Below are positions 3,411 through 44,974 of a stretch of DNA of 64,000 nt, in pieces. Under the pieces are notes generated by a model. It ran no database searches. It worked only from the letters and a program-made list of their open reading frames with translations, and was not told the DNA's origin. The position numbers and the translations under genes were made by a program. Source of the DNA: Branchiostoma floridae. Its lineage: Eukaryota > Chordata > Leptocardii > Amphioxiformes > Branchiostomatidae. The stretch spans positions 10,007,295 through 10,071,294 of the forward strand of contig NC_049995.1 in NCBI RefSeq assembly GCF_000003815.2. The letters run 5' to 3'. The stretch's first letter is position 1. Each line of letters starts with the position of its first letter.

Positions 3411-3461
<51 letters not shown>

Positions 3462-3530: not shown

Positions 3531-3853
3531 CATATGCAAACACTCACAAACTACAATAGATGGAACCCAGAACCATTTTTATTGAGATAAAATATCTTAA
3601 TGCACTTCAAACAATTTTTTTCCAATTTACAGGCTTGAAAGACGGCTGGAACCCATGGAAAGTCACCGACCACGTGGTCACCATAGTCGGCTACGGAATC
3701 GACCCAAGTTCGGACGAGAAGTACTGGATAGCCCAGAACACGTGGGGTACGGACTGGGGTGAGCTGGGATACTTCAAAATCCGCAGGGGAACCAACGAGG
3801 TCAACATTGAGTCCATCGCAGTGACCATGACTCCCATTGTGCCTAATCCGTAA

Positions 3854-5113: not shown

Positions 5114-8100
5114 ATGACAGCGGTGCTGATGCTCGTGATGTTGTCCGGCCTACCGATGTCCTGGGCCGACACACCGGCCAACTGTTCCTGGGCTCAAGTC
5201 GCCGGACTCTGGGAGTTTCACGTCGGAGCGGTGAGTACACGTTGACTTACGTTAACCACTGTTTATGGTGTAAAAGAGTGAAGTTCAAAGAAACTAGAAC
5301 TATGATAAAAACATGTTTGGCATCTACAGTCTAGTATCAGACGGTGTGTTAATTTGACGGCGATAGTTGCTGAGCACAATGACTTGCTTAATTGTTTTCC
5401 TTCTTTTCTTTAGTTAAAAGTTAATTGCAAGTTCGTGCTAATTGCAAATACGTGATTGAAACATAGAAGGCACACATGTGACAATGAACAATGATAAATA
5501 TCATTTTGAAAAAGGCTACTCGAATCCGAAGTGTTGACTTTTCTTGTAATGAATCTACATGTATGAATATACGAAAGCTATGTTGGGTCAACAACCGCTA
5601 ACTGTGTCACACAAAGGATGCAGTCAGTGTGGGTCTTTCCTGCCATGTTGGTCATCCTTCCACAACTTTAAAGATGCTTCTTTTAGTGATGATAATAAAT
5701 CGACCCAGATCAAAGTTTATTCTAGTAACGCATGGCTTCTGAGGATTACATGTGTTGACAGCAAATAAAACCCACATAAATAAAGGAACATTTAAGACTG
5801 GCAATGTGACAAGATGTACGTGGCTATTGGTAAATTGAAGTTGAGCCATTGCCAATCTCGGCCTACAAAAGACATATGTCATGTAGGGTAGAACATCTGA
5901 AAGTTCTGTGTACCATCCAATGTTTATCATGTCTACATACAAGTGCTAACAAAACGCTACCTTCTTGGCGAGGGTAATGGATAATTAGTACGTTCAGGGT
6001 TCCTAGTACGCATGCGCAACGACATGCATTGTGGGTGATATGCCAAAGGTGAATGCCCCTGACTTGTAGAAAGTTATATTTGGTACATTGTTTTTGTCTC
6101 AGGGCCTTCATCTTTGGTATATTACCCATAATTTCTGTCACTGCACATGCGTACTCATAACCGTGAACGTACGTATACCGTATACGTACCGATTCCGCAG
6201 GGTGGAAACGACAACCGGTTGAAGTGCAGTGGCTTCTCGCCTGTGGAGATGTTTCAGTTGAACCTTCAGTTCCCGGATGTTGTGTGGGACCAGGACGGCA
6301 ACAAGGGCTTCTGGACCATGATCTACAACCAGGGCTTCGAGGTGGTCATCAACCAGAGGAAATACTTCGCCTTCTCAACGTAAGAGATATGGTCAAACCT
6401 GGGGTCAAACCGGTTTTTCTTGTTGAAAAAAAAAACTCAAAGAAAGAAGAATAAAATACGCCAAAAATAGTTACTCAAGCAACTGGATATGGTTTTGAAA
6501 CAGTCAGACGTTTCGGAAAGAATCCACTTTCCTTCGTCAGTGACACTGAAGTGATCTGCAAGAAACAGGTCTTTTATACTCTAACTATGAATGAAGACAA
6601 TTTCAGATGTCCTATAGGAAACGTTGTAAGACAATTCATACNNNNNNNNNNNNNNNNNNNNNNNNNNNNNNNNNNNNNNNNNNNNNNNNNNNNNNNNNNN
6701 NNNNNNNNNNNNNNNNNNNNNNNNNNNNNNNNNNNNNNNNNAGTTGCTTGGAGTAAACTATTTTTGGCGTATCTTATTACCTGGATGTCTAACCTACATC
6801 GACGTAAAGAAGAATAAAAATTTTTGCTTTTAGATCATCACACTTCAAAACTGCAAGAAAATCTGAGATATTGAGTCTGTTTCTATAAAATTGTTTCATT
6901 ATTTACAGTTTCATACAAGATGGCAGCGTCGTCACGAGCTACTGCAACACGACGTTCGCAGGATGGTCACATGACCTCCTGGGACGAGACTGGGCCTGTT
7001 ACTATGGCATCCGACTGAAACCTGGTGTCCCGGATGAAGCACCAGTCACAACTCGCTTGCTACAAAAGATCGAGGAAAAGAGGACTCAAATGAATGATAC
7101 GAACTTCGTAAAAGGTTGTACAATTAAAAATGTTGATAATATGTTGCCTTTAGCATTGTATCAATTCTGAGTAATTCATTTTCGTTTTGTTGTACGTAAC
7201 TTTTCTGTATCATCGCATCTTCAGTCAGTTTGGTAGCATGCTAACCCTTCTGTCGTATTGAGGTCACTTTAGAGGTCAAGCCATGAAGGTTTTCAAATTA
7301 TCTTCAATGCTAGAACCAGATAGCTCTTAAAGACCTATATAGCATGCATTCAAATGTATTCACGATGTTCAAACTTCTATTTTTTCACCAGCAATAAATA
7401 GTGCACAAAGGTCATGGAAGGCGGTGACCTACCCAGAACACATTGGGATGCGGCTATCCAACATGGCGTCCATGTCAGGTGGCCATGTCTCCGCGCTGAG
7501 CTACCCCTTACCAGTAGAGATGGACGAGAAAACTAGAATAGGTGAGACAACATTATCTATTGATTTATTAGCTCTTGTTTATTGAAAAAAATTAGCTATG
7601 ATTTAAACATGCATCTGTGATTATGCAGGCATGACTTGTTTGTGTCGAAGTTTTTTCTTAATTCTAATTTTCATCTTTTTTTAATGATTTAATTACAGCT
7701 ATAAGTCACTTGCCATCGGAGTTCGATTGGCGCAACGTCAACGGTCAGAATTTTGTCCCTGACGTCAGGGAGCAAGGCGACAGTTGTGGCAGCTGCTACG
7801 CACAGGTCACGGCCGCCGTGTTGGAATCACGTCTTCGAATCATGACCAACAATACTCTCAAGGTCAGTGCAATCACGTGATCGTCACATGATTAACCACG
7901 TGATCGTCGCATGATTAACTAAGGCACGTGCAACGATAACTGCAGTCCAATATTTGGCCCCATCTAATAAGACTAATTGATAAAGCACAGTTTGAAAGAG
8001 ATGAAAACAACTGCAATCAAAACTGCAAAACTGTAGCCTAGAGGCTGAAGTGCAGACTTCTAGTAACGTACAATAAGCTACCTTCCATGTTTGGGTTGTT

Positions 8101-10203
8101 GTTTGAAACCAACAAGTAACTTTAAAAGTTAAAAAAAAGAGAAAAGAAGAACAGCTAAAAATATTCACTCACGTGATCTTCTCGTCACAATTTGAATCAT
8201 GAGAGTGCCATTTTAGGATGCAAGCACAACAAAAAGGACTGTCCGCCATATTGGTGTCCTGTCATATTGGTGTTCCATTCAATTCAGTGCACCTCTCAGT
8301 TTGACTCAAGCGCAAATTACATGTCAATAGGGACACCAACAAGGCAGTAGAAGCACCTTTGACCTATCACATTCCTTTTCTCGTTCCCAGACCAGCATGT
8401 CGCCCCAGGATGTGGTGAGCTGTAGCGAGTACTCGCAGGGCTGCCTTGGGGGTTTTCCGTATCTGACTGCCAAGTACGCCCAAGATTTTGGCATGGTCGA
8501 AGAACGGTGTGACCCCTACCACGGATACCCAACTCCCTGCAAACAGTATCCTTCTGACTGTAGGAGATACTACGCCGAAGATTACCACTATATCGGTAAG
8601 GCTGTTTATGTCATACCTGGGCCGCGAAAACGTTCGATACAGGTGTTCCGGACCGTGTGATATCTTTCTGTAACACACAGGCTTCCAAGTTGTATCACAC
8701 GGGCTTCCTTCAAGTAAATCAACCTATTTCAAACATGCCGAGTGCGGCACGGTTGAAAATTCGAATACCGGATTCGGACGTTAGGATTGCTGTTGTTACA
8801 ATTGTTTGTTCGAGGACACAACATTTTCGCGACTTCTAGTGCATTTCATATCAAAACATGTGTTTTCTCAGGTGGGTATGGCATAGATAAAATACAACAA
8901 GGTGTATTCCGCATCACCCTCGGTCCCAGCCCTCCCGCGAATCGGATCACCCTCCGGCCTTCGGCGGTCGGGCGATCCTACCCGCGGTCGGGCTTGTACC
9001 TCGGGTGATACGGAATAAACTATTCTATATTTATACCATGCCCAACACAAATACCATTATTTTGTTATTTGAATCCGATCTATGCGTTAATTAGTAGTTT
9101 ATGCAGTATTAGCAAGCATTAAAAACGTTATTAACGAAGGGAGAGATTTGACTGAAGGGTATTTTCATTTACAGGAGGGTATTACGGCGCTTGTAACGAA
9201 GGTCTGATGATGTTGGAGCTGGTCAATAAAGGACCAATCACAGCCGCCCTTCAGGTGTATGATGACTTCCGGTATTTCAAGTCAGGGATATACCACCACA
9301 CAGGTAACTGCTTGTAATAGATAGAGTTTCGTATATAGACTTTAAAAGGTTATCTATCATAATTAGTATGTTTGAACAATTGACTGTAGATTAGTAAGTC
9401 AACCCTTTCTGTGAAATCTTTGTGGTGATTATTTTTGACAACAGAGATGTTGGAAAAACAGAGGGTTTGAGAGAATCACTTCATGTCCACATTTTTTGCA
9501 AATATTAAAGTATAAACGACAGCAAGCTCTACTAAACCGATTGTATCAGAATATTGCATTATACTATAGAGCTTGTAACTTTGAGCCTTCACACAATAAT
9601 CCAATTGCATACATTTTCGATCATGCGCATTGGTTTTTCTGGGATATTTGACCGCACACATCGGACATGCGTCTATTCTCCAAACAGCGGTTGGGTCGCG
9701 GAAATAGTAGTGGTCGGGATTTTTACCGTAGAAGTCGTGATTTTTTACCGTGGTTATTACTTACTTAATTACTACAATCTCAGCGATTCAACATCTGCTT
9801 GGAGAATAACATGCTTCCACGTTTTGGAAATACTTCGGTCAAAGTTGAACGAAAGTTGATACCACCTGCCGTCCTATTTCTGGCATGATCTGATGCGTCC
9901 AACAACCAGATGGAGAAGAAGTTTAGTATATATGATATATTCTGTCTTAAATATGACCGTTCTGTCACTTCAATACATTCAGGTCTCCAGAATGGCTGGA
10001 ATCCTTGGCAGTTCACCGATCACGTGACCACGTTCATAGGATATGGCGCTGACGCAACTTCCGGTGAGAAGTACTGGATCGGACAGAACACGTGGGGTAC
10101 GGACTGGGGCGAGCTGGGATACTTCAAAATCCGCCGGGGAACCAACGAGGTCAACATCGAGTCCATTGGGGTGGCTATGACACCTATAGTGCCGAACCCA
10201 TAG
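5114..10203 (+). CDS. CTSC: Cathepsin C (dipeptidyl peptidase 1), complete
   Basis: Eight exons: 5114-5230, 6201-6379, 6909-7114, 7392-7541, 7699-7862, 8391-8595, 9175-9303, 9983-10203; 1371 nt, 456 aa (human 463 aa). Residues 1-18 are a signal peptide, and the mature N-terminus DTPANCSW keeps the Asp that caps the active site and reads substrate N-termini. The exclusion domain carries [16 protein letters not shown] and [21 protein letters not shown]. The papain-like domain begins at LPSEFDWRN (about 222). Catalytic residues are C250 in DSCGSCYA, H397 in [11 protein letters not shown] and N419 in [11 protein letters not shown]. The family is a lysosomal dipeptidyl exopeptidase that activates other proteases. 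There is one extra residue between the oxyanion Gln and the catalytic Cys (QGDSCGSC against human QASCGSC), shared with copy 1. The first intron holds a foldback element ending about 28 bp before exon 2. Confidence 0.95.
5990..6175. mobile_element. Foldback/MITE family 1, copy in cathepsin C intron 1
   Basis: Inverted repeats of roughly 70 bp: TACGTTCAGGGTT...AGTACGCATGCGCA on the left and its imperfect complement ending at about 6172 on the right, with an inner GTGGGTGATATGCCAAAGGTGAA arm. A second copy of the family lies at 16253-16450. The right end stops about 28 bp before exon 2. No coding capacity; a non-autonomous DNA transposon is inferred. Confidence 0.75.
6450..6781. mobile_element. 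Foldback element interrupted by an assembly gap
   Basis: The left arm AATACGCCAAAAATAGTTACTCAAGCAACT is complemented on the right of the gap by AGTTGCTTGGAGTAAACTATTTTTGGCGTAT. The left interior contains GTCAGACGTTTCGGAAAGAATCCAC followed by TTCCTTCGTCAGTGAC. The 100-N gap falls inside the element, consistent with assembly collapse in a hairpin. Lies in cathepsin C intron 2. Confidence 0.7.
6642..6741. other. Assembly gap (100 N)
   Basis: Exactly 100 unresolved bases, a conventional placeholder; true length unknown. It is within cathepsin C intron 2 and does not hit an exon. Confidence 0.99.
7874..7930. promoter_or_regulatory. Three CACGTG E-boxes in cathepsin C copy 2, paralogous position
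   Basis: CACGTG at 7874, 7897 and 7925, in the same intron and starting at the same distance from the Cys exon as the cluster in copy 1. Two further near-matches (CACATG, CGCATG) look like decayed sites. Function is inferred. Confidence 0.45.
8890..9020. mobile_element. Short GC-rich foldback element
   Basis: The arms TATTCCGCATCACCCTCGG and CCTCGGGTGATACGGAATA are near-perfect complements around a GC-rich centre, in cathepsin C intron 6. No coding capacity. Confidence 0.65.
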
Positions 10204-15657: not shown

Positions 15658-18600
15658 ATGAAGAAAACCGCGAAGTCCGAGAAGAACAGTCGCACTGACA
15701 ACAAGATGGAGAAAATTGTAAGTATATTTACATTCACGTTATATAGCGCCTGTCTCTTTCAGTGCTCTGTCAAAGAAAAGTAAATGTAAACAAAAGGGCG
15801 ACTAAAAGAAATAGCACTTTACGTACGAAAATTTCCGAACGCATATTATCCTAGAGTCTGGATTATAATTCACATAACATTAAACTTTCAACTGGTTAAA
15901 GCGATATTTTAGATAATATAATCAAAAAGTGTCACTCCTCCTTTGTTATTCTTTTCATTTTCTGCCCCCTTCTGCCAGATCTCTATTCGTATCCAAGTAA
16001 ATAGTAGAATGATAACTGTGAACATTGATTTACATTGCAGACTTCTGATGAGAATATGGCGAAGGCGTCACGTGATCTGAGGGACGACCTGATGCAGGCT
16101 CAGGAGCACGCCGCGCGGTGCATGCTGGTCCAGCGCGAAAAACAAGCCAACGAAGGACTACTCATGGCATTATCAGGTTTGATATTACTTTCAACATGTA
16201 GGATATGACAATATATCCCATGTTAATTTGAGGAACGTTTCCTTTAATAGTTGATGGATCCGACTGCGTATGAGCAGCGAAACGCATGGTGGGTAATATG
16301 TCAAAGGTGAAGGCCCCTAAGCTGTAAACGATTTTTGTCTAGACCGTGTTTAGTTCATGGTCCGAATGTTGTTTATGTTTCATGGACCTTGACCTTTGAC
16401 ATATTACCCACCATGCAGTTCGTTGCGCAAGCGCAGTTGGATCCATCATGGTTATTTGAATTCTTTCTGTTTCCAGATGCCCTGGGTCGGATCAGAGAAC
16501 GCCGGGCACGAGAGCAGGTCCGCCTGGAAACCGTTACGTCAATCAAACAGCTCCATGAGTGGTACGAGTACGGAAAGGGCATCTTGAAACAAGGGGACGG
16601 ACTGGAAGCCATCTTGCGATTTCGTAACGAGATTAAATGGCTGAGGAGGTTCTACCGCACCTCACTCGAGCACCTCTACAAGTATCTGGAAAGATATTTC
16701 TGCATAGAACGTCACACGGACCACAATCTTCAAGGAGAACTGACCAGAATCATGGTCGAAACGAAGGATGTGAAAACTCTGCTGGATCAGCATTTCGTCG
16801 AAGCGAATGTGCTGCGGCCGAATGTGCAGGATAAGGACCCTGTCGTCAGCCTCGTTCCCTTCTTGTACCTTGAGTTACGTCATCTCATCGACCTTTTCCA
16901 CGAATGGAGGGTTCATGTCAGGTAAGGAACTTATGCTTGTCATATTTACATGTTTAATATTGTGATATTCTTGTATGTAAAAATCACATCTGCATGTATA
17001 AAACTCATCATGATGAAAACTCACCTGTGTTGGTACTTGGTAGTAATCATAGTACAATGCTTAACTTTCTTACAGCACGTGATCTTGCGGATAACTGACG
17101 TCAACAATTGGCCAAACGTTTGATTGGACAAAGTCAGAATACTCGACACTGAATAGGACTACTTTATAAGGTGCATTAAGGGGGCTACATACATCATGGC
17201 ACTCCAGCCATCACTGAACAGAGACGGTGGGCGTTATAAACATACTGACACGTTTGACCAATTGCTGACGTCACGTGTCTGCAAGGTCTCTTGTTAATAA
17301 GACCCGTGTATGTGTAACTATCGTTATACACCCCATCAGATACAGAAACAAGCTGGAGGACGTTGAGCAGCGCCGCTGGTTGGTCAGACGACAGGAGATG
17401 CAGAGGCGTCACGTGATCGATGACATCAGCGAGAGGATAGTCACAGTCACGCGAGAAATGGCGGATCGCGAGACGAGACTACGTCACAACATCGCGGGGC
17501 TGGAGAGAGTTAAAGCTGTCATTTCTCAACAGAAAGGTACGATGATATTTCAAGTTTTGTACAGAACACTAGTACAAGATAAGTAGGAATTGTAAGAAAA
17601 TAGATAATTTTTACCTTCATATGGTCCAGCTCATAACAAACCGTCTTCATTTTCACTACAACGTATTTGTACATATATATGATGACCAGCCCTCCGTCCT
17701 GCCTCTTGCTACATAAGGTAAGTAGCAGACAGCAACGAGTGTTCCCTGCTTTACCACTTACCTTGATAACAGCCGTCTAGTCCATGTCATTGAACTTGTT
17801 TTAATGCAAGAAGAAGAAGAAACAGAGAAAAAACAATGTTTTCCTTTCGTCCAGGTAAGCATAAATATGTTAGAATATGGAATGTTGAACTTAGTTATAT
17901 TCTACAAATCTGGTTTCAGGGATTCACGAAGAAATCGAAGTGCTGGAACTGGAGCTAGACGGGTTTCTATGGGAAAGGACGAAGCTGCAGAAAATGGCGG
18001 TCGAGATGAAAGATGAACTCCGAAACATCCCAAACAAGCGAGACTACAAGCGGGACAAGATAAAGACAGAACAAAGAAAAGTTGTCACAGATTTTGACAA
18101 AAATCAGATCAAGATTAACGACAAAAGAAAGAAGCTTGAAGAAAAGTACAGAGTAAAAGACTGGTACGAAAAATCCGAGCACAACCTAGTAAGTATCACC
18201 TTGGAAATTGCAGACGATAGGAGGAGGATCGCAGGTCTCGCGAAGCTGCGCGAGACTTTGGAGCGAGAGCGAGACGGTGCCAGAAAGAGGCTACAAGATC
18301 TGAATGCGTCTGCTACGAATGTGGAGCTGAAGTTACACTCGCTTCACACGGATTACCTGTACGCTATGAGGAGCGTGGAACAAGTTAGGCGAATCCAATG
18401 GCAAGTCGACGGAGGGGTGGACTTTGAGAGGGGCGTGAGGGTTCGACCAAATGAAGTCCATGTCAGTGAGCTGAAAAAGGTACGTCCTGAAAAATGTCAT
18501 ATTAATAAGTAGTTTAAATAACAAAACTAGCACCATGTACACTTAAGAATGTAACAAAACATGGAATGTAGTTCTAAATATAATTGTTTTATTCACAATA

Positions 18601-20680
18601 TATGTGTTGCTTTACTAGCAATAAACCCTCGGTCATAAACTTTACAAACACGTGCAACGTAGATCGTACCTTCAATGCTTGAATACAAAGATCCTTTCCT
18701 AAGAATAAACGGCCGCGGCAAATGAAATATTTTCACTGAATATTTCTACTTAAAAGTAGACAAGACATTGCTTTTAAAGATAATGATACACTTGATTCAA
18801 TTGGGGGTCTAATCTTTTGAAAACATTAATCTTGTCCATACTATATAAAAAATGATAACATGTAAAGATTGCTTTTATTTTTTAAAGAGAGGTGAGGCAT
18901 TCTACGACATGACGTCACACCCTCGTGGCAGAGTCATCATCATCAATAACGACTCCCACTGCACCATGTATGACGACTATCGTGACGTCACACATCTGAC
19001 TGACGTGTTTGAGCAGCTGGGGTTCGCCGTGACGATAGAACAGAACATCACTGCTACGGTAGGACATTATTTTTTTGTATATCCCTAATAGTATTAAACT
19101 AGTTTTGTCGTCCCTTATTGATACCGAATGTTAATGTACGGGGTACGTGGTTATCGACGTATACAAACATATAGAGATAGATAGATAAATAGAAATGTAG
19201 TATGTGAGTGTGTGTGTTTGCCTGTGTGTCTGTGTGTGTCGTGTGTTCATGTGTCTGTGTGCGTGAATGTCCTGTCTGTGCGTGTCTGTGTGCGTTTGTG
19301 TGTTTGTGCGCGTCTTTGTCTTTATGTGGAGGGAGAGAAAGAGTGAGAAAGAGAGAGAGAGAGAGAGAGTGAGAGTGAAAGAGAGAGAGAGAGTTCTGAA
19401 TCATGGTATCGTTACCATTTTCATACCAAAAATAACAAATATGTTGTATGTCAGCTAATAAAGTATCCAAGAACCGATGACAGGTCAAGAATAATCTAAA
19501 AGCGCGTAAGCTGGCGCCATTTTGTTCTCTTTCCAGGAGATGGAGAATCAGGCCGCCCGATTGGCTGAGGAGAACAACATCCCAGGATGCAGCGCGCTGG
19601 TGGTGGTGGTACTGAGCCCGGGACACGACCGCCGTCTGCACGGCTCCGACAAACAGGGCGTCTCACATCGGGACTTCATGGCGCAATTCGAGGTATGGAA
19701 GGACTGATAGATTCAGCCTCTACAGCAGGCTCTATTGGCCTTTCGTCTTTTTTTGGCACATAACACACTTTTCTGGTTATTTCTTTTCATTCTGCCAACG
19801 ACCTATTGCACAAAAAAAAAGAAACGACCAGCAAAAGTGTTATCATGAGCCATATGCAAAAAATGACGAAAAAAGGCGCAGCGAGTCTGCTATGGAGGAT
19901 ACGATAGGTTGTCCACAGTCACATAACTATGACGTCATTTACCGTCAACAACGGTGATTGGTTGCCAGAAATGCTAAACCGTCGATATGGACTCTAGTTG
20001 TCGGTTCAATTCATACTTTGTAGAGAGTACCAGACCACCTTTTGTGCGTACGCGCGTGCTGTTTGAATGGTCGCCATCTTGGATCCTTCCACCCCACCAA
20101 TATGGCGTCGGACGCTACTATTTGAGCTTTAAAGTCAAACGGGACACACTTTGTGATAAACTTTTACTCATTGTGTTTTTTCCAGGAGGCATTTAGTGAC
20201 AACATGAAGGGAGAGCCGACTCTGTTCCTGTTGATGGACACCCCTTCCGGAAGTGACGTCAAGACCACCAACGACGACGACTTCTACAGCAGATTCTACG
20301 AACCCGATTTGCCGAACGATGACGACGATAACAAAGATGACGGAACCGACCAAGACGGAACGTCCAATAGTGACGTCTTCGTTGCGTGCTGCCCGTCCTA
20401 TGGTTACCTTTTATGTGAGGATTCCGTACAAGGCACCTTAGCTGCCCAAACATTCGTCAAATATCTCACACATTTTGCGGCAACGGAAGATTTCGCGACA
20501 ATACTCCACCGAGTGCGCAACGAGCTGCACATGCGCAGTAGCGTCAAAGCCACACCTGTTTGCGATGGCAACTGCGCAGACGCAGAAGATGAACATAACG
20601 CTCATGATTCGGCCACAGATAACGGTCTCTCATACTTGTGTTTGCCATCAAAGAAGTTGTATTTCTTCCCTGGGGTTTAA
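15658..20680 (+). CDS. Coiled-coil/caspase-domain protein 1, catalytic residues lost (pseudocaspase)
   Basis: Eight coding exons: 15658-15717, 16041-16176, 16477-16921, 17340-17536, 17920-18479, 18888-19058, 19537-19692, 20186-20680; 2220 nt, 739 aa, all phases compatible. The ATG follows an acceptor at 15620, so a non-coding leader exon lies upstream. Residues 21-215 form a helical region shared with the downstream paralogue (LMQAQEH, LIDLFHEWRVHV). Residues 216-465 are charged coiled coil. A caspase domain starts at about 470: FYDMTSHPRGRVIIINND resembles the initiator-caspase start YxMxSxPRGxxLIINN, then FEQLGFAVTIEQNITAT. At the catalytic His the sequence is LSPGHD (P551), and the QACRG box reads LLMDTPSG (T594), so both catalytic residues are gone. 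An acidic linker (DDDDNKDDGTDQD) precedes a p10-like region ending KKLYFFPGV. No DED, CARD or death domain was recognised. A regulatory, FLIP-like role is inference. Confidence 0.88.
16253..16450. mobile_element. Foldback/MITE family 1, copy in caspase-like gene 1
   Basis: Arms GATGGATCCGACTGCG...GCATGGTGGGTAATATGTC and the complement ending CGCAGTTGGATCCATCATGG. The inner arm matches the copy at 5990-6175. It ends 26 bp before the exon at 16477. Non-coding. Confidence 0.8.
19200..19395. repeat. GT-rich and (GA)n microsatellite
   Basis: GT-rich stretch followed by (GA)n in the intron between the two p20 exons of caspase-like gene 1. Confidence 0.9.
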
Positions 20681-20700
20681 GACTTTATGACCTCCTTGAA

Positions 20701-20774
20701 GATTCTAATGATAACGGTGTCCAATACTTCTGTTTGCCACAAAGAAGTTGTATTTCTTCCCTGGGGTTTAAGAT
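20701..20774 (+). repeat. Tandem duplicate of the caspase-like gene 1 terminal coding tail
   Basis: Starting at 20701 the sequence repeats the last coding segment at 20606-20683: GATTC...ATAACGGT, TGTTTGCCA, AAAGAAGTTGTATTTCTTCC and CTGGGGTTTAAGA. The unit is about 95 bp. The duplicate lies after the real stop at 20678 and has shifted out of frame relative to KKLYFFPG, so it is 3' UTR. Confidence 0.9.
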
Positions 20775-20821
20775 TCAATGTTGAGATAACCATCGCGATA
20801 ACATTTTTGCTAGGTCATCAT

Positions 20822-20885
20822 GCGATTTTGATGTCGTAGGATTTTGATGTCGTGCGATGTTGATGCGGTACGATTTTAATGTCGT
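20822..20885. repeat. 16-bp tandem repeat, four units
   Basis: Four consecutive units of GCGATTTTGATGTCGT with few mismatches, in the 3' flank of caspase-like gene 1. Confidence 0.9.
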
Positions 20886-23800
20886 GGGGTTTTCAGATAA
20901 GCTGTAAACGAACCAATTGCCAAGTGGGATATTATAAGACTCTTTTTAGACAAGAATACACCTGCATTTTGCAAAACATTTGCAAGACTATCCCAAAAAT
21001 GCCATTGCCTAGTTTGCGATCGTACGACCGTCATACGACAAATGTGATCAGGCCCTTAAGCCTCTTTGAAGCCAACTGTTGGAAGAAAATGAAGTAATAG
21101 AAGTAACGGTGTCTATTCGTTTTATCTAGTCGAGCATACTCTAATGTTCTTACCAAGTATCAGTTTAATTCGTGCACTTGTCGTACCCAGTATAACAGAT
21201 GTGATGCGTCTAGGAAGGGTGTATTTTGTATTGTATACTTTACGATGTGTATCGTCGCCATGCTTGATCAGAAAATGTCAATATTTGCAAATTTATAAAT
21301 ATTCTCTTTTGAGTGCCTAGATGATGCCATCCATAGAACCAAGTCAAAATGGCTTTGAAAAAAAGTTGTCATTGATCCATGCAATGTTGTTTTACAGTAT
21401 ACGACTGATAGACAGATCACATGTACTTTTGAATGTTATTTGTTACCTGTAGACTTGAAATAGAAATACATGTGTTGTGAGAAAAAATGTTTTCGCCTGA
21501 TAATTTTCGTCCATAAATGACCAAACTCAAGTTTTGTAACTTTGTGATGAATCTTCAACAGGACGAAATGCAGACATTTTTAATGGCGCCACCTAGCGGA
21601 ATGTTTATGAAACGTTCGAGATGCGTGTCGGTAATGTATCCACTCCTAACAACGGTGGCCCCACCAAGTGCTTTTGTCAACAATCTCTATTCATTTACGC
21701 TTCCATACAATTCTATTTAATGCCCCACCGGCTTAGTTGCATCAAGGGTTTAAAATGCCTTTGTGTTCGGTTGTGTATGTGTAAGGCGAGAAGGTAACAA
21801 AAGAAGGTATTCACAACAGTGCTACTGTACAAACACTAAGAAACGCAGGCTACAATATGTCTTGAAAAGACTAGACAAAGTTCATCAGAAGAAAGGGGGT
21901 TATGTCAATTCTCTTTGCACTAACGTCTTTTAAATTTCATGTAAGCGATATAGAATCGTTATATTATTGTTAAAGTCATTCCAAAGAGATGAGGTACTAT
22001 AGGTAAGAGAAATAAAAGTTACAGTCAGTAAAAATAAATATTACAAAGAAATTGCAATTACCTCTTTTTGCAGTGGAACCGTCTGAGTGAAAGGTGGTCG
22101 GTTCCATCGCAGTGGCTCATGGGTCATTGGCGCATAGTAACACTTGGTAAGAGTGTCGCAGTTTCTCGAACAAAGATGGACGGATGGAGGGAGAACCTAT
22201 CGAAAACCTTGCCTCTGTCAATCTCTTAGTTGAAATTTGATTGACATTTGGCTATCCAAAGTTATGTAGTAATGTCTGACGTAGTTGTAGTCGAGGAGTG
22301 GACTTTCAAAATTTTCGAAGAAGTGTCGAAAGGGTACCAAAGTTGTTGAGACCAAAGTTACAAGTCTTTGAAGCAAATCTATCGGTCTTGACTGGACTTG
22401 CGTACAGAAGTTGACAAGCTCACATTTGCCTTAGGGTAGCACAAGACTCACTTTGGAAACCAAGGATCTAAGGTAAGGGTAAGCTATGATTCTTTTGTAA
22501 AAGCATTACAAGTCAAACCGTTAATGTCTCATAATGCATGTGGCTCTTTATATAGAAAAAAACCAAAACACTGGTCATTAAAAGTAAACAGAACTGCCTC
22601 ATTTTCTCTGTGAAAATACCCCGCACTTATAACATATAACATTATGTTACTAACGTTCTAATTTCCTTAACCACTCGTATAAAATGTTTAATATATTCGT
22701 CAGTAATGTTTATAGCGTTACGCAATAATACAAGTACAATGTACTGATTTTTATTTGCAAGGTCTTGTCCGAGGATCAGTTGTACCATTGAACAGTTTGA
22801 AAATAGTGCAGAATGACATTGGTGACGATTAGATATCTATTTGAATATAAGAATTGATACGGAATAAGATTTGAGCTTAAAATGGTGTTTGACTTTTGTT
22901 TGAAGCAATGTTCTGGGCTGTGAGAGTCTAAAAGGCAATGCTAGAAACCTTTTACACGCTAGAGTGAAATTGAAAACATGTACTTTGTTGTCGGAACATA
23001 CCTTGGATATTTTGTTGCTGCTCTACAGTTATTCTAACACAGTTTTTAGTGCATGTCAACATGGTCAGTAATGTAGGTAATACAAGATGGGGGACAGGTA
23101 TCATATAAGAGTTTCATTACAAGATAAGAATACTGGAATTCTGGATGATTTTTTTTACAAAATTAACACCAATAGCACCTAATTTCTTTTGCACAAGTTC
23201 AATTCATGTTGTTTATCATAATTGCTTTCACAAGTTAGATTCATGTTGCTTATTATGCATGCCCCAGTTGATGTAAAAAGAGCAACCAATAATAACTGAC
23301 CTCTCACAAAAAGGCGGTGAAATATAACCACACAAGTTATTGATGACTGGCGACCTTCAACGAATTTAGTTCATTATTCTAAAGGTGACAAATGCCTGAA
23401 TACCATCGGTTCTAGAATAGCGCTTTTGATTTATCAATATGTTTATATAAAGTAGTATTGTAGCGAATCAAAGAAAGTTTTCTTGAACATCACAAACGAA
23501 ACCTCCAGAAATCGTGGTAATGTATGGTGGCACGGTATTGGGTTGCACCCCCACTGTGTTGTGTACTATCGTATGTCCCGTATGTTTTGACTGGGACATG
23601 GGGGGGGGGGGGGGGGGTCGGGCAATCTCTCTTCGTTTAGTGCACAAGATCAACCAATGTCCTTTTACAATAACTGGCATATTCATTTCAATATTTATTT
23701 GTCTATGAAAACCGCACAATCAAACGAGAATATGCTATCATAAATTCTAAGAGATTTCTAAGACTTAATAAATTTAAAGAGACAAAAACCTTTCTAATTC

Positions 23801-24959
23801 AGTGACACATTTGAAGTAAGACTCTGTATCCTCTATACCCTATATATTATGATAAACGTACTAGCGAGCCGATGTCCCTTTTTTTCTTTAGAATATTAAT
23901 GTCTTATTCCACGACTAACAACTTTGATTCAATCAAAAGCTTTTCGATAATCTTTAAAGTATCAAAGATCAAACATTTTTTTCACTGATTTACTGACCTT
24001 TTCCTAATTCCAAGTAATCTCTCTATACTAAAACTCCTAAAGGGTTAAACTTTAGAGATGTAACACGTTTGCACAGTTAAGTAGAGCGGCAATCAACATT
24101 CCCACGTAACTTAAACGACCCCTGTGCACTTTGAATGGAGAGTGGTAGCCCGGTAGCCGCCGCCATGTTTGCACTAAGTCTCGTAGGTCAACCATCACAA
24201 AGGAGTCCGTCTCTAAATCGATAGTGTTAAAAGGATTCGCAAACTGAGCTGAACAAACTGTGGCGTTTTTTTTACAAGGCCGCGTCGTGTTCATCTGATA
24301 AACACAGCTACAAGTGGGTGTAAAAGTGTAGGCCACCCTCGTATATTTCCTTATTATGTCATCAATGTGTTTCTGGTATGTTTTAACTGATTGAAAATTT
24401 GTAACAAACTATGATAATTAAGGGTGTGAAACGCGTTGTTTTCTTCCCCTGCTTGTGATTGGTTGTGATCTGTACAAACGTTTAAAAGAAGAACGTTTTT
24501 CTGAGATTGATAAAGATTTCACATAAATTGTACCTTCAAGCATGGCATTGGTGATATAGGTTTGGGGACAAATCTTTTGTCTTTAGTGCTAAGTGCTATT
24601 TTGGGTAGAAAACAGTAAAACAGTTCGATTGTTTAATTTTCTTCTTGATCATGGTAACCATTCTTTAACGGCTTTGGGTTGTTTTATCGGTCTAAAGATT
24701 AGTCTATTGTGTAAGCGTCCAGTCGCCTTACCGTAGCGGGAGCGAAGTAATTCAAACCAACCCTGAAAACACCCGACGTACGCTAATGATAAACTATGCT
24801 GACAGACAACACTCTCAGCACCGTAGACGCTAAGAGGAGCTCCCAATAGTATGATTACCCTACTAGTACCAAGCTTATTGTCTAAAGCTTGCTTAACTAT
24901 CCCGGGACAACATTCAGTTCAACTTTTCTTTTATCATTTCTTTCAGAGTCTTCACCAAG

Positions 24960-27900
24960 ATGTCGTCTTTAATGGAATCATTCAACGGTGACTTGTCACC
25001 AAGGAGTCACTCTGTAGCTAACTATGTAAGTAAATAGTATCGTATTTATTTTATCATCAACCCTTCATAGATTTTAAATAGACATAAGTGATATTCATTG
25101 ACATGCTATTCTACTTTAATAGCTGTATAGAACATTTTTATAGGTAGATAGCGTAGGCAAATATTCAAAGATTGCTTGTATTTCCATTAGCACTTTATGA
25201 TATATTCAGCAAACATGGTGATTATATATCATGCTTAACCATATATAACCTTACTACCAAGAGGTGAAGCTTTGGTCAACTTGAGCCTTTCAGTATTTTT
25301 AGGGTTAATATTTCGAACGTACGTCTACGACTACGTTGTACCGCAAGTTGGATCAGGAAGAATCTTTTTATAATAAGAGATTTTTCTGAAAACGTATGAA
25401 ATCCAATTAAGCACGCATTCAAGAATCCGTAAATGTTGCGTTTTTTCATGAAAAAAGCTTTACTTGTACTTGATTATAACGTATGATTACCATGCATATG
25501 TACAGTATAGTGTATGATATATGTAGACATATAGTACAGCGTATTATAGTGTTTTATAGCTTTACATATCATTTTATTTTTCATCTTTTTTGTGATGAGC
25601 CGACAATCAAAGAAATTATGTATACCCCTTCACCTTTCTTCCGAAACTTTCTTATCTGCCCCCCTCCCCCATATCCTTAGACAAAGAAGGAGGCTATGGA
25701 AGACGCATCAGACGAGGAGAGAGGGGTCCTGATGCAGATGCAGGAACATTTCTACAGGCAGGCTCTCATGACGGAGAAGGCCAAGTACGACAAGGTATGG
25801 ACAAATACAACAGCTATTCGTGCCATATAAAAATTAATAGATGGAGAATAGATGGAGGATCTCAAGTACCATAGAACACAAAGTTTGATTCTAACATTGA
25901 GTTTGTATCTTTTATAAGATGCATTTTAGAGCCAGGGCTTAGATCTAATGAATAAACAAGGCCAGGGTTGATATCATCTAAGTGTTAACTGTTGTTCACC
26001 TTTATCCGCAGGGTAACCTATATCTGTGTATTTTCATGATATTTCAAGTCAATGGATTGTGCTTTAAAAGTTCAAACTGCAATATTTTTGAAAATATTGC
26101 AGTCCGATATGATAACAGATACAGGTTACCCAAATACTTTCAAATATCACCAACGGATATGTAGGTTACACTGCGAATAAAGATAAAGTAGCGTTTCATT
26201 AATGATATGACATACGATAACCATGTGCTGATTATATTACATATAAATTAAAATCCAGTTCTTGCATCACAATGTGTACGATTAATGATAATGGGAGATT
26301 ATGTTTTGTTTTACATTCAAGTAATAGATAGATCATTAAGATCTATTGACCTTGCTAAATGTTCTTTCACTTCTGAATCAGTTTTTCCGAGAAGAGGTGA
26401 GTAGAATGCTGGGGATAGCCGCCCAGCGCAGACGACAATATGGCCTCCCCAAGAAGAGTCACGAGACCTGCGACACCATCAAGGCCTTGCGCGAGTGGAT
26501 CACGTGGGAAACTAAGCGAATCAGCATCCACCGCGATAACGAGGACGAGAATGACGTCGTCCGCAACCTGCGCATGCTCCTGAACAGGATCGACTACGTG
26601 AAGATTCTTTTCTCAGACATCAAACGATATTTGATCACTCCTCTTCTCACGTACTTTGCGATCAGTGCAGAGTTTAACGCTGAGCTTTCGTCAGTCAGAA
26701 GAGATCTCATGAAAGGAAAACAGCAATGTGAGAAGCTATTATCGGACGACTACAAACAAATCACCGACGGACAAGCCTTCGAAGCCATACCGAACGAGAA
26801 GCGATTCCCAGTTCTAGTAGTGGTACCCAAAGCGATAGGATTCCTCTGCATAATCACAGATCTCACCACAAAATGGCGGATCCACTCTCAGTTCGAAAAC
26901 AATCTGGACAACTTGTGGACTCGCCGTGCCTCCTTGGACACCCCTCAGATGCTGCAGTCCAAGAAAGAAGAGATCACCCACCTCGAGAACAACGTGCAGA
27001 TGGCTCAACGAGACTTTGACGAGATCTCGCGAGACGTGCGGGAGTTCGAACAAGATGCTAAAGATTCTCAGTTTAGCAGTCAGTACTCGGGTACGTCTGA
27101 CAAGTTAGAGCAGGCACAACATGAAGTCAACAAGCTGCTACAAGAAGAAAGAAAACTTCAAAGAAAAATCAAGAGCATGACGGAGCGACTTCGCTCAACA
27201 AGAGTAGGGGCTGTTAAAATAAGAGACATGTTGAATCAGTCGAAAGAACAGCTCGCCAAAACACAAGAGATTTTGCTGACAAAAACTGAGGAGTTTGAAG
27301 AGTTGTCATCAAGAAAGAAAGAATTTGACGACTCGGAACAGGAGTTCCTTCGAGGAGGCTTCGACCAGAGAAGAGTAGAACTTATGCAGATGAAGGAAAG
27401 ACAGAGACATGCCAAGAAGAAGTTACGGTATGTCTTTAAACTATTTTTAAAAGCTATTAAGACAAGTGTAAACAATCGAGCATTCTGCCACACAGTATAA
27501 CGTAATCTCTGTGTAGGAAATGTACTTTTATTGTATCTCAACATAAAGGTTTCTAATGTAAACCTTCACTTAAATAGATTGGGACTTGTCTCATATATAT
27601 TTCCAACTGACTCGGTCGGCCTTGTTCCTGTATGGGACGTTAGAGTCACATGACATCAGCAACGGGTCGTAAGTGTTCGATAGTCTGTGTTGCCACACGT
27701 CTCTGTTTATTTCAATTGTGGTTATGTATATAAAAAAAAAGGTTCTATGATCCAGTGATAATGCCTTGTAAATAATCATTGTCTATTAATAGTAAGTGTA
27801 AAAAATGTGCCAATACAAAAGAACTTATCTATGAAACGTTCTTCACAATTTTCTGTCAATTTTAACAAATAATTTCCAGAGAGATTTACCAGTGGCATAA

Positions 27901-29928
27901 AATAGATTCAAAACTGGCCAAGGAGTACAGCTCGCCAAATGGAGTCATCAGCCACTCCGTTAGCCAGACACACTCTAGGCCGGCTTCGCTCCTCTGGCAG
28001 CTTATAATGCTCCATTTTGGTGCCTTAGGATCTGCTTGGAGATTACTTAACAAATACTATATCATACTTTCTGTTTTAGGCAACTAGAGGAGAGGCGTGA
28101 GCGGATAAAGCAGGATTTCCGGGCGGTGCGTGAGGAGCTGATCTCTCTGGACACCGAGCACGACAAGGTCACGCAGGACTACGACTACGTCAAGGGCATC
28201 ATGGACACCTCCCTCAAATCTCTCTGGAGAGGTTCGTGCGATTTTTTGGGTGAAATGCAGGAACTTTCGCGGTGGTTTAATGTTCGCGGTTTTTGCGGTG
28301 GCCCATTTACCGCTAACATTTTCCCATGGCAATTAGAGACTACAATCCATGATGCTACCGCGAACTTAAAACCACCGCGAAAAGTCCATTTTCCTGCTAC
28401 CGCGAAATTAAATTTCCACGAACTTAAATGCATTTACAGTATTTCCATAACGCCTGGTGTGCCTGGTGTCACGTAATGTTTTGATTGGTAATGAGTTAGA
28501 ATTATTCAAAATTGCCGACCCATGACGTCACAAGTTATCACGGCAGCGCCCATGAACCGAGGGCAAAACCAAAAATGGAAACTTTGCAAAAGTTATAATT
28601 ACAATTAAATTTTAAATCTTAAAATGCAACGTGGTGTTTAGAGCGGCGCACAATCGCAATCTCTACAGTCCATGGGCCGCACATAATATAGCAGGGAGGG
28701 TCTATCAGAATGTTACAATGACCGCCATTCAATTCGTAAATGGGATCAATGATGTGAAGTGAAGCATAGGAAAATTGTGGAATACTTTTGTTCTTTTTGG
28801 CAACGCCTTAAGAGCGGAGACATATTTTCTCTATCCTTATCGTGTACACTCTTATTTTACACAGATCAGTCCCCGGATGCCATCTCCGTTCTACCCAACA
28901 GAATGACGCGAGAGAAATTAAAAACGGTAAGCGTTACACTAAGTTAATGAGATGTTCTAAAGTCTCCATGTATAGAAGTATGTAGAATAATGGGCTACGT
29001 GTTGTCATTGGAATGACGTAAAATCCATTGGAAAAATACAGATATTTGTAGTTTAGCTCAGATGATAACTAGATAGAATATTATTGATCCTGTATAGATC
29101 CAATAGTAAGTGTTTTGTTTTCTGTTGCGATGATATCAAATAACTACACGTTGTTTACCATGTTTATATCATGTCACTGTAATTAGCCTCTAAGTATGAA
29201 CTTAGAAATTAACACTTCATTTTAACTGATATTCACATTGTTGGTTATTGATATACATGATGAACTGACGCCATTTTCTGCTTCGTTTTGCTACAGTTTC
29301 CGGTCTATGACATCCACCAACCCAAAGGAATCTGCCTGATTATCTGTAACGAGATCGTGCGGAACAAAGCGAAGTGCAGACACAGCGTGAGGAAGGACCT
29401 AAGGGGCCTTGCCAGCCTGTTCCGACAGTTCGGCTATCAAATCGTCGTTAAGGAGAACCTGACGTCAACAGTGAGTCAAAAGTTGTTTTCATCAAATTTT
29501 CTCTGTTGGGCAATCAGCAAAGGGTTAACATGCGCATGGTGGTTTTTTTTTCAGTGGTTGTATTTTAGAACCATTCTTGTGGCGCACAATTTTGGCTGGG
29601 TTTATTCTCCATTAGTTTTTGGTCCTTAAAAAGAACGCAAATGTAATGACATTAGTTATGGTAAGAAAAAGCAACTCAAACATCAAAAAGTAGATATTTG
29701 GATTAACAGATCGAAATATGAACTTTTAATTATGGTAAAGAAAAACAATATGTATAAACATTTAGGACAAAAAAATCCAATAAGAAATGACAGTTACTAT
29801 TTGTAACTATATGTGCTGTGATTTTTGTGTTTCACCGGTGTATGGCATAACAATATACAGGAGTAACCTCTCTCTCTGTCTCTGTCTCTGTCACTGTCTG
29901 TCTCTGTCTGTCTGTCTCTCTCTCTCTG

Positions 29929-29982
<54 letters not shown>

Positions 29983-31132
29983 ACAGACTCTATCTCTCTC
30001 TCCCCTCAATCTCTCTTGAGAACATGCAAATTTTCTTCATACTAAACGTACAGCGTAATCTTCTTCCTCAGCAAATCGTCGAGGCGCTGATCTCCCTATC
30101 GGACGAGTACCACGAGTTCAGCGGGCGGTACAGCTCGGTAGTGGTGGTGATCATGGCTCATGGGGACGCCTCGGGTAGACTGGTGGGCACGGACCTGCAA
30201 CCTGTCTCCGTCAACGAGCTGACGTCACACTTCCAGCACACACGCTGTCCCAGCCTCATGGGGCAGCCCAAGATGTTCTTCATTCAGGTGAGAAGTAATC
30301 TGTTTATTTAGTAATCTGTTGTTATCACCTGTATTGTAATCAGGTTGTTTGTCTGTAGTTGGGAGGTCTCTGAATATGTAAGGACGCTGAACACTTCACT
30401 TCCTGCATGTCTACAACATTGGATCAGGGCCAAACAAAATTATCCAGGTCTCGAAATACTTCATTACACCGTTAAATCTTACACCCTATAAGGCTTCTCA
30501 ACTGAAATATTTCGAGACCTAAATGTTTTGTTTGGCTCTGATCCAATGTTGTAGACATGCAGAAAGTAAAGACTTATGACATCTCTATTCCTCATAAATA
30601 CACATTTAGAGCTAGTTTTGTATACTAAATCAGAGTGTAAGTGAGGTTTTCGTTTCCTTTTTTTTTCATATTTTAGACTTGCATGGAGCTTGTCTTGGAA
30701 GCACAGCGACTGGGCAACCCCGACGTACCCGGGGACATCTCACCGAGACGAAACGGCTTCAAGTCAACTTTCAGTCTCAACAGCTTCGGTCCCCTCGTCG
30801 TAACGCCCGAAGAGCCGAGACTACCGGACAACAGCGACTTCTTCGTGGCACAGGCGACCGTCTTTCCCCCGCTAACGACCCCCATACTAACCTCCTCTCT
30901 AATCGTACAAGACAGATCATGCTCGCCCGAAAACTGCTTCCTGAACGCCATGGTTCGAATCTTCGCCGAGTACGCATGCGTGGAAGATTTGCTAAGCATG
31001 ATGGGAAGGGTGGAAGACTGCGTTGCTAGTACGGGCAGCCATGACAGTTATACCGGGCGAAGCTCTCCCTTGCAGATGTCATACGTCAAACAAACGTTAG
31101 GAAAACAGATCTTCTTCATGCCTGGGATGTAA
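24960..31132 (+). CDS. Coiled-coil/caspase-domain protein 2, catalytic Cys/His retained
   Basis: Eight coding exons: 24960-25025, 25681-25794, 26382-27427, 28080-28231, 28865-28926, 29297-29470, 30072-30287, 30677-31132; 2286 nt, 761 aa, phases consistent. It is paralogous to the gene just upstream: LMQMQEH and LCIITDLTTKWRIH match its N-terminal region, and the 1046-nt exon fuses regions that are two exons upstream. Residues about 230-460 are coiled coil. The caspase domain begins VYDIHQPKGICLIICNE. The catalytic His is H568 in VIMAHGDASG, and Cys is C612 in FFIQTCMEL, so the usual QACRG reads QTCME. R508 aligns with the p20 S1-pocket Arg. The p10 part (SDFFVAQATVF..., NCFLNAMVRIF, SYVKQTLGKQIFFMPG) lacks the S-W-R Arg. 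It is probably a catalytically competent cysteine peptidase with altered specificity; this is inference. Confidence 0.88.
25996..26187. mobile_element. MITE family 2, copy in caspase-like gene 2
   Basis: Terminal arms TTCACCTTTATCCGCAGGGT... and a decayed complement ending ...CTGCGAATAAAGATAAA. An internal palindrome GCAATATTTTTGAAAATATTGC lies near the centre. The same termini occur at 44614-44828. Confidence 0.75.
28235..28443. mobile_element. Foldback element rich in CGCGGT/ACCGCG
   Basis: TTCGCGGTGGTTTAATGTTCGCGG on the left is complemented by CCGCGAACTTAAAACCACCGCGAA on the right, with a further ACCGCGAAATTAAATTTCC block and a TTTACAGTA end. It lies in an intron of caspase-like gene 2. 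Non-coding. Confidence 0.7.
29870..30000. repeat. (CT)n / (CTGT)n microsatellite
   Basis: About 130 bp of CT and CTGT repeats, in the intron before the His568 exon of caspase-like gene 2. Confidence 0.95.
30403..30562. mobile_element. MITE family 3 (long terminal inverted repeats)
   Basis: CTGCATGTCTACAACATTGG...GGCCAAACAAAA at the left and its near-perfect complement at the right give arms of about 60 bp out of 160 bp. It lies in the intron between the catalytic His and Cys exons of caspase-like gene 2. A degraded fragment is at about 4100-4145. Confidence 0.85.
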
Positions 31133-40446: not shown

Positions 40447-40837
40447 TGTGTCGGCTTCTGGATGACTGAGGTTTAATGAATGCACCTAAAGGAAAACATG
40501 AACATACACATATTAAAGGGACGAAAATACTAGCATTAGTGTTTGAAATAACCCTTTTTTATAACGTGAATTGTGATCTAATTTCATTGGTTGGCCAGTG
40601 ATAGCTCAATAAATTACGAATACATGCATTTGATGATGTTGCTACATGTCCTAAACGTATCAGTCACTGTTGGTACTGAATCTGGTAGGGTGGTAGTGTG
40701 ATCTTTCTCCTCTTCCCATAGTTTCAGACACATAAAACACTCAACTTATAACAACTCTTAAAACTGCAGAGTTGTTGTAAGTAAATTTAAGTATGAGTGT
40801 TCACAAAAATTATAACAATTTGTGGTTCTGAATTTAC

Positions 40838-41190
40838 CTTGTAGGATGGCGTCCAGTGAAGTGAGTTCAAACTGTCTCTGTTCAAAGTGATACAGCTATG
40901 AATCCGCTGCTGAGTACTACATCGTCAAACAGCATACAACAAAATAATAGTACGCACTGACGGCTACACAAAACAGCAGCACGGTTCTGTAGCTGCAAAA
41001 AGACGGACTGTGCGAGAGAGTGTCTTTTTGCAGGTACAGGACTGTTTGATGTTACATGTAAATGAAAGTGTATACTTCAACCATGCTGTTCTCTAAACAG
41101 TCCACTAGTATTACATGTATACAGAGCACACTGAGTCAACAAGACAATAATGGTTCTTTTACAATAGAATTTGGGGCCAGATGCTGAAAT
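40838..41190 (-). promoter_or_regulatory. Promoter/leader region of gene C, paralogous to that of gene B
   Basis: Contains the donor-like end of a non-coding exon at 40838 (matching 39043 in gene B) and shared blocks such as GCTGTTCTCT, GAGTCAACA-like and AATGGTTC with 39043-39400. A 10-bp hairpin GCAAAAAGAC/GTCTTTTTGC lies near 40998-41032. The similarity shows that the duplication included the promoter. Confidence 0.5.
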
Positions 41191-42544: not shown

Positions 42545-44974
42545 CTAAGTAGTAGTAGTCATCATGGTAGTACAGCCTAACTCGTCGTCCTTGTTGGGAC
42601 AGTCCTCTTTCCTATCGCATCTCCAGCCTTCAGCTATACAGGTCCCGTCATTGCAGGTAAACTGGTCAGCACCACAAGTTCTAACTGAAAGAACAGACAA
42701 GCAAGAAAATGTGTTATTTTTTGTGTAAGACTGTCACTGTTTCCATCTTAGATTATGCTGTTATACCGATCATTCGAATTCATTTTCTGCATTTACATCG
42801 GTACCTCGTATATCGGAACGGTATCTTCATTAGACTATTACCTACAAAAATGTAATGGATATTATTCAGCTATACATTCAGTAATTAAACATCTGTATGG
42901 TTGTACTTTTCTTTTGTTTATATTTCATGTTATATATCTGCTTGTTTTCTTGTAAAAATAGAAAATACTAGATGAATTGAATGTTGTTCTTACCTGGACA
43001 GTTGTCTTCATCTTCCCCATCCGGCAGACAGTGTTTGATACCGTTGACGTCACACACCAGATCGAAACTGATACAATCCCCATTGTTACATTCAAATAAA
43101 TTCTGGTCACTGCACGACTTTCCTGTTGTTGTTGTTGGTGTTATTGTTGTTGTTGTTGTTGAGTCTGTCACGCTTGATTCTGTGTTTTCTTGCGTCCGTG
43201 GATGCTGTGTTGTTCCTGCAAGTGTAATAGAATGTGCGGAAGACTTTGAGTTCTCATAAAACAACATAGTAGATCTCTTAATATAATTTCACCAGATTGG
43301 TAGAACATAACATATTGGAGTTTTCGTTCAAACGACATGTATGTACACAGATAGTGGAAATTCCTAATAGATATAGATATTATAGATAGATTTAGATATA
43401 GTAGATATTCAGCATAGTATCAGCATGCGAACAATACATGGAAATATTAGAGATTCACTTCAGTGTCAGAGAAAGTCGCTAGAGGGCTCAAAGTCTGATA
43501 AAGTGTTTACTGTCAAGAGCTGAGCACACATTACAATCTATAGCTATGCTTATGTACCACAGAGAGGTATTGAACCAATACTAGAGCAACAAACACACAC
43601 TACCAAAACAAACCTTGGTACTAAAGGTGAAAACTGGCGCATGGTTTTAAACATGATATACACTCTCGTGAGTTTACGTTCTGAAATCATAAGTCATTAG
43701 CAATGATCTCAAAGAAGGCGACAGTGGTCGTTGAAATTTTATCCGTGTATACCTTTGTGTTGCAAGAAAGATTGGCATTGTATTATGACAAGTACATGTA
43801 CCTGTACTTTCGGATTGAATCGCTGTTGCTGTGGCTGGGAGGATGCTTTTGGTTGTGGTATGATGAATCGTATTTGTAGGCTGGAGAGTAACCGGGGGAT
43901 TCGCCGTTGTGCCATTTGACGCTGGACCTAAGGGCACTGCTGTCCCGTTAATTGGTGGCTCCGCTCCTAAAAAACACATTATACACACGCTTTCGTCAAT
44001 TTTTCTCGCGATTCTTCGACCAACTTCAAACGTGCAAAATAATGTAATTTAGTCGGTTGCAATGGGTATTAAAAGAAACATGAATGCAAAGAAATAAACT
44101 ATACCTGGCAAATAAACTGCAAGTAGTGTCACTGGTATCGCAAGGATTATTACCATAGCGACTCCGGCAATGATGTAGCAAATGTTGTCTTTGAGACACT
44201 TGCATCGTGTACTGTCTGCAGTACCAGTTTGGATCCGTTGTCCATTCTGTGCTTCAACATCAACTTTTATGCGGTCCTCAGTTCTTTCGCCGTTTTGACG
44301 TTGGAGTTCAATAGCACCGTCGTTTGCCATTCTATCTTTTTGACTGCAGGGAGGCAGGACTTGAGGTGAAGGGTGGATCTTGTTGCCTTTTATCTGCAGG
44401 GGATGAGCCAGAAAACCACCGTTGAGCGATGAAATTGATATTACAACAAACTGTACATGTCCGCTATTCATAAAGCCCTCTCCCACCACTGTTTCCATGT
44501 AGCTTTGTTTAGACAGTTTATTATTACAACAGTAGACATACTCTAGTACTTTTGTCGAATAGGATCTATAAAAGTTATGGTATTTGTGACTGTCAATGAT
44601 CACACATGTTGTACGTCCTTTATCCGCAGGGTAACCTATATCCATTGTTTATTTTAAACAAAAAAACAGGGTATTTAGAGACATCAACATGTCGACAGAC
44701 GGTGGGTTCAAATTGAAAATATTGTCAGTCTGGTATAATTGAAAATATTACGGATTTGAAACAGACATCCCTAGATACGGTGTTTTTGAAAATAGCGAAT
44801 ATAGGTTACCCCGCGGATAAAGGTGAACTAGCTTTACATACATGCATGTGAGTGCGTATGTATGAAAATTGCACTCGTTTCGTTACTTTTTGAATGGAGA
44901 CGAATACTACACTTACTCTAAGACAGCTACACACGACATACATGTGGCTGGGCTCAAAACGTATAACTTACCAT
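42545..44974 (-). CDS. Type II membrane protein with two LDLRa domains (gene D)
   Basis: Coding segments: ATG 44974-44972 (end of exon 45019-44972), 44393-44105, 43966-43802, 43215-42994, 42684-42545; 819 nt, 272 aa, phases agree. Residues 1-70 are cytoplasmic, with one membrane segment at about 74-95 (YIIAGVAMVIILAIPVTLLA). A Thr/Pro-rich stem follows (TLQPTNTIHHTTTK, then TTTTITPTTTT). LDLRa 1 is SCSDQNLFECNNGDC...DGEDEDNC and LDLRa 2 is RTCGADQFTCNDGTC...NKDDELGC, both with the six Cys and the acidic calcium-binding cluster. The protein ends TTMMTTTT with TAG at 42545, with no protease domain. An alternative acceptor at 44344 would start at M23. LDLRa modules bind ligands or act as protease stems; the partner is unknown. 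Confidence 0.78.
44614..44828. mobile_element. MITE family 2, copy in gene D intron
   Basis: CCTTTATCCGCAGGGTAACC at the left and GGTTACCCCGCGGATAAAGG at the right are near-perfect complements about 215 bp apart, with no coding sequence between. The same ends occur at 25996-26187. Confidence 0.85.

Follow-up and report, generated by a model that had tools for sequence, protein, structure and literature searches.

Can a live caspase be placed under the control of a dead one by a scaffold other than the death-fold domains through which caspase activation platforms mainly assemble? The question is raised by a 64,000-nucleotide stretch of the genome of the lancelet Branchiostoma floridae (contig NC_049995.1, positions 10,007,295 to 10,071,294 of the forward strand; hereafter the window, whose own numbering is used throughout), in which two genes, gene A (15658-20680) and gene B (24960-31132), lie head to tail on the + strand with 4.3 kb between them. 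Each joins an N-terminal helical domain and a long coiled coil to a C-terminal caspase domain, which is catalytically dead in gene A and retains the catalytic dyad in gene B. The evidence supports the descent of the pair from a single fused ancestor, and we give a probability of about 40% to a functional reading in which the helical domain and coiled coil would stand in for the death fold in assembling the proteins, with A modulating B in mixed assemblies.

Two complete genes encoding fused proteins

Both gene models consist of eight coding exons, with a GT donor and an AG acceptor at all 14 introns, and their reading frames are intact, encoding 739 amino acids in gene A (exons 15658-15717, 16041-16176, 16477-16921, 17340-17536, 17920-18479, 18888-19058, 19537-19692 and 20186-20680) and 761 in gene B (exons 24960-25025, 25681-25794, 26382-27427, 28080-28231, 28865-28926, 29297-29470, 30072-30287 and 30677-31132). 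The first coding exon of gene B (MSSLMESFNGDLSPRSHSVANY) was located via alignment of the B. belcheri protein P0001, whose tblastn match covers 24936-25034. An earlier note on this DNA, which had proposed a tandem pair of coiled-coil/caspase fusions, was right that both genes are real; its extent of gene B is corrected by this newly added exon, with which the gene starts at 24960. The Pfam scan and the homolog search for B were run with a query lacking the first 22 residues, corresponding to exon 1.

In gene A, exons 2-4 (16041-17536) encode the helical domain, compared here over residues 21-220, and the start of the coiled coil; exons 4-5 (17340-18479) encode the long coiled coil, as seen in the model of the ortholog P0002, and exons 6-8 (18888-20680) the caspase domain, made up of p20, an acidic linker and p10 (Pfam residues 479-701). 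In gene B, exons 2-3 (25681-27427) encode the helical domain and the greater part of the coil, exons 4-5 (28080-28926) the end of the coil and a spacer, and exons 6-8 (29297-31132) the caspase domain, placed by Pfam and alignments.

The C-terminal domain matches the Pfam caspase family PF00656 (Peptidase_C14) in both proteins, with E 4.8e-18 for A and 2.8e-26 for B. As the earlier note had stated, no recognisable DED, CARD or death domain accompanies it: a Pfam scan of A and B up to E 1, extended to E 10 for their N-terminal domains alone, lists no death-fold family, although the models of these domains are poor and a very divergent death fold may be present there. Below the Pfam cut-offs, B has five matches, one of them to Prominin (E 0.0097), and GSHPx is listed for A (E 0.099).

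Each gene has a counterpart in another lancelet. That of gene A is the 738-amino-acid protein P0002 of B. lanceolatum, labelled 'periplakin-like' (91% identity, 669 of 738 aligned residues), and that of gene B is P0001 (LOC109476238, annotated as predicted and partial), with 96% identity over the whole query (708/739). Both are annotated in the protein database as one fused coiled-coil and caspase protein, so the coiled-coil and caspase exons are unlikely to belong to separate genes, an outcome that the earlier note had named as fatal to its proposal. The 'periplakin-like' label suggests that P0002 was named after its coiled coil. No plakin or spectrin repeats are found by Pfam in A up to E 1, and the precomputed Pfam list of P0002 contains PF00656 only.

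Homolog searches up to E 0.01 returned at least one protein for each gene, among the best 7995 (A) and best 7994 (B) candidates scored, and a search with the caspase domain of B returned four, including P0001, among 1855 candidates. Three caspases of 460-491 amino acids (P0003-P0005) carry what looks by eye like a short coiled-coil stretch directly ahead of the caspase domain, together with a canonical active site (THG, QACRG, GSWY); their front parts give no match better than E 0.09 to the helical domain or coil of A or B.

When A, B and five other proteins were compared with the window by tblastn up to E 1, no third full copy was found in its 64 kb, the matches outside the two genes being a short repeat after gene A and a 42-column match at 40761-40886 (E 0.33). 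The repeat lies on the + strand just past the gene A stop, where 20710-20773 repeats the ~64 bases that close the coding sequence, stop included (20618-20682). The two copies differ by few mismatches and a gap of a single base, and represent a small tandem duplication of the 3′ end of the gene.

One ancient duplication of a fused ancestor

Aligned over their length, A and B are identical in 174 of 687 columns (25%). The similarity does not stem from the coiled coil: a chance coiled-coil match was considered and ruled out, as, compared alone, the N-terminal domains reach a z-score of 16.2 and the caspase domains one of 20.3, against 3.2 for the coils. The N-terminal helical domains, of about 200 amino acids, are also recognised as homologous by blastp (E 2.4e-11) and by hhalign (96%) when cut out, the z-score deriving from 500 shuffles. 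Three of the seven introns are common to A and B in both alignment column and phase, the first lying upstream of the helical domain, the second immediately ahead of the caspase domain and the third within the caspase domain; in 20,000 trials of random placement of seven introns, three common introns arose in 0.015%, a chance of about 1.5e-4.

The separately homologous N-terminal domain and the three common introns indicate that the ancestor already had both the helical domain and the caspase. Descent of A and B from one tandem duplication of this fused gene, in or before the lancelet lineage, is supported by these comparisons, in agreement with the single duplication put forward by the earlier note, and judging from the divergence of the two sequences the event is ancient.

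A profile of the two N-terminal domains gave four matches among PDB sequences up to E 10, the best at 0.049 and two of them tropomyosin/GCN4 coils, and Pfam gave a single match, in one of the two members (CagY_M, E 0.074). The VIA-align structural list spans model residues 487-740, that is, a region outside the N-terminal fold.

Gene A: a probable pseudocaspase

Catalysis in caspases relies on a His and a Cys, while an Arg/Gln/Arg set forms the S1 pocket. In gene A, the catalytic His is replaced by Pro (codon CCG, 19618-19620), where SHG reads SPG, and the catalytic Cys by Thr (codon ACC, 20240-20242), where QACRG reads MDTPS, bearing out the earlier claim that the upstream copy has lost both residues. 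Alignment with canonical caspases places Met, Met and Glu at the three S1-pocket positions. These losses are present in a second species: both catalytic substitutions are identical in P0002, and the altered motifs VVVVLSPGHDRR, LFLLMDTPSG and YLLCEDSVQGTL are matched letter for letter in B. lanceolatum, where P0002 carries VVVVLSPGHDRRLHGSDKQG, LFLLMDTPSG and YGYLLCEDSVQGTL unchanged. The helical region is likewise shared, with 184 of 195 residues identical to P0002 over residues 21-215.

Because the same dead motifs occur in B. lanceolatum, A looks like a pseudoenzyme that has been maintained. That it is a pseudogene was ruled out by the intact frame and by the ortholog with the same motifs. 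The P0002 model (mean predicted local distance difference test, pLDDT, 56.3) contains helices at residues 187-276, 281-315 and 322-443, with pLDDT blocks of 74-94 over residues 221-420, and a caspase fold recognised by Foldseek (3v3k_A, E 8.1e-09).

Gene B: a caspase with retained residues

The catalytic His (MAHGD, codon CAT, 30159-30161) and Cys (QTCME, codon TGC, 30680-30682) are both kept in gene B, and five of five canonical columns are retained in all: Arg (CRHS), His (MAHGD), Gln and Cys (FFIQTC) and Arg (QDRS). The last of these had been taken as a missing S1 Arg in p10, a suggestion dropped once the alignments placed QDRS in that column. Identity to P0001 reaches 127/132 in the p20 core, 48/48 in the linker, 97/99 in p10 and 202/218 in the coiled coil, the coil standing out as the less conserved part (P 0.008). 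The idea that the intersubunit linker is unusually conserved was abandoned, since 48/48 against 660/691 elsewhere gives a Fisher P of 0.25. In the P0001 model, the protein is all-helical and of low confidence N-terminally, with pLDDT blocks of 57-87 over residues 261-450.

The caspase domain of B is well kept, and conservation is no proof of activity; from its retained residues it is plausible that B is catalytically live.

A working model and its rivals

The model that we favour starts from the tandem duplication of a fused helical-domain/coiled-coil/caspase gene, after which copy A lost all catalytic and aspartate-pocket residues while staying on as a pseudocaspase, and copy B kept the dyad and pocket. 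The N-terminal domain and the coiled coil, the latter modelled as long helices in P0001 and P0002, would unite the proteins as homo- or hetero-oligomers, as DED or CARD do elsewhere, bringing the caspase domains close enough to dimerise, possibly as heterodimers. A, without catalysis of its own, would then activate, restrain or redirect its partner B, comparable to c-FLIP-L with caspase-8, and B, if active as we infer, would act in whatever pathway the pair presumably serves. The C-terminal strand forms the dimer interface in caspases, and it is alike in both copies (SKKLYFFPG and GKQIFFMPG), which fits dimerisation. The contact between c-FLIP and procaspase-8 is described as lying in strand beta-6 in the consulted text of PMC4715348.

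Several points count against this model. When the coiled coils are compared alone, z is 3.2, the top-scoring shuffle out of 500 exceeds the real score, and hhalign gives 2.4%. As the coils no longer align, it is doubtful that those of A and B pair with each other, and any such contact would fall to the helical domain. Measured against P0002, A shows lower conservation in its caspase part (229/263 identical) than in its front (414/440; Fisher P 0.002), which fits relaxed constraint and would speak against a tight role. The adjacency of the pair is known from this window, and each ortholog comes from one other species. The pentapeptide of B, QTCME, departs from QACxG at three of its five positions, and ENC stands where canonical caspases have GSW. 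The QACXG motif is cited as conserved for amphioxus TNFR- and LRR-caspases in the portion of PMC2575513 consulted. The earlier description of the downstream copy as apparently live therefore holds for the kept His, Cys and S1 residues, and needs a caveat for these departures.

The strongest rival, which we rate as a somewhat weaker possibility than assembly of A with B, is that the two have become independent scaffolds that no longer cooperate, B being a protease or sensor that its coiled coil anchors and that has targets of its own, whereas A would be structural or an adaptor, its caspase fold serving only for binding. Such a separation is in keeping with the 25% identity over 687 aligned columns, the coils that cannot be aligned, the four of seven introns unshared in each gene, the lower conservation of the caspase part of A than of its front and the periplakin-like label of its ortholog; it sits less well with the tandem arrangement and with an N-terminal domain and C-terminal strand that are still clearly common to both.

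It is unlikely, in our view, that both proteins are pseudocaspases, with B inactivated through its pentapeptide and GSW changes and both acting as oligomeric scaffolds. QTCME and ENC are what this proposal draws upon, and it has to contend with the five dyad and S1 residues, all kept in B and all gone in A, and with a p20 core almost identical to that of P0001 (127/132). An amphioxus caspase with QSCRG is moreover reported to promote the death of transfected HeLa cells (PMC3196919, as far as the consulted part goes), which indicates that position 2 of the pentapeptide tolerates change. That gene A is decaying, or is an annotation artefact fusing unrelated coiled-coil and caspase exons, is very improbable, for although all five catalytic and pocket residues are lost and the caspase part changes faster, the 739-codon frame and its splice sites are intact and a full-length B. 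lanceolatum counterpart of 738 amino acids carries the same dead motifs.

Assembly of A with B through the helical domain remains the reading that we prefer. Its boldest form is doubtful: that the locus encodes a caspase activation platform outside the death fold in a basal chordate, where an undescribed helical domain and a coiled coil would assemble a pseudocaspase/caspase pair under a FLIP-like control of independent origin, the active partner using the non-canonical loop QTCME. Were a dead/live pair on such a scaffold confirmed, pseudocaspase control would have arisen on more than one occasion and by way of another assembly device, and A and B would offer a compact system for testing it.

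Other features of the window

Near the start of the window, an open reading frame on the - strand (790-1293), about 14.4 kb from gene A, matches the Bcl-2 family PF00452 with E 2.7e-9 and 37.9 bits, where the cut-off is 31.4, and contains the motifs HWGR and GWDGW, which we take to be BH1-like and BH2-like, respectively. That an apoptosis regulator of the Bcl-2 type lies close to the two caspase genes may be due to chance. Two tandem papain-family protease genes follow on the + strand, at 1771-3853 and about 6132-10203, with a run of N within 6455-6817; PF00112 is found in five of the six open reading frames tested in this region (E 2.5e-16 to 2.8e-10), and by eye we assume the genes to be cathepsin C-like. 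On the - strand, an LDL-receptor class A-like stretch (42968-43288, E 3.3e-4, under the Pfam cut-off) and a trypsin stretch (62345-62932, E 4.4e-10) flank open reading frames that look transmembrane by eye, so that 42968-62932 is perhaps a membrane serine protease cluster.

Comparison with known systems

The c-FLIP-L and caspase-8 proteins use DEDs. In the consulted text of PMC11121540, where both are described with recruitment domains, c-FLIP-L (CFLAR) and caspase-8 of vertebrates are likewise adjacent paralogs, one a pseudocaspase with lost catalytic residues and the other active. The resemblance noted earlier between this pair and the lancelet genes holds as an analogy of arrangement: adjacency and the dead A correspond, while the competence of B rests on its retained residues. 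It does not extend to the front end, since Pfam finds no DED in A or B, which instead carry the helical domain of about 200 amino acids and the long coiled coil. Furthermore, heterodimerisation has been reported for c-FLIP, whereas for A and B it would be a prediction. Our best guess is that the likeness is convergent.

Two further systems offer parallels. CASPS18 and CASPS19 of Aedes aegypti are also paralogs, CASPS18 being reported to serve as a decoy that enhances CASPS19; they are described as Decay homologs, for which the consulted portion of PMC4840389 mentions no coiled-coil scaffold. In the coral Acropora, caspase-X pairs dead and live caspase domains and has been modelled like c-FLIP/procaspase-8, both domains being located in one protein (consulted part of PMC4715348), in contrast to the two genes with coiled coils described here.

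Amphioxus itself is credited in PMC3196919 with 45 caspases, many of them with novel architectures, and shows domain shuffling ahead of the caspase domain; the A/B pair may be among the 45. The front ends named in the consulted text of PMC3196919 and PMC2575513 are DED, DD, CARD, TNFR and LRR, and the word 'coiled' is absent from the main texts of both; within the literature searched, no description of the A/B pair or its scaffold was found. Pairs of a dead and a live caspase are already known, and it is the helical and coiled-coil scaffold that sets the lancelet genes apart from them.

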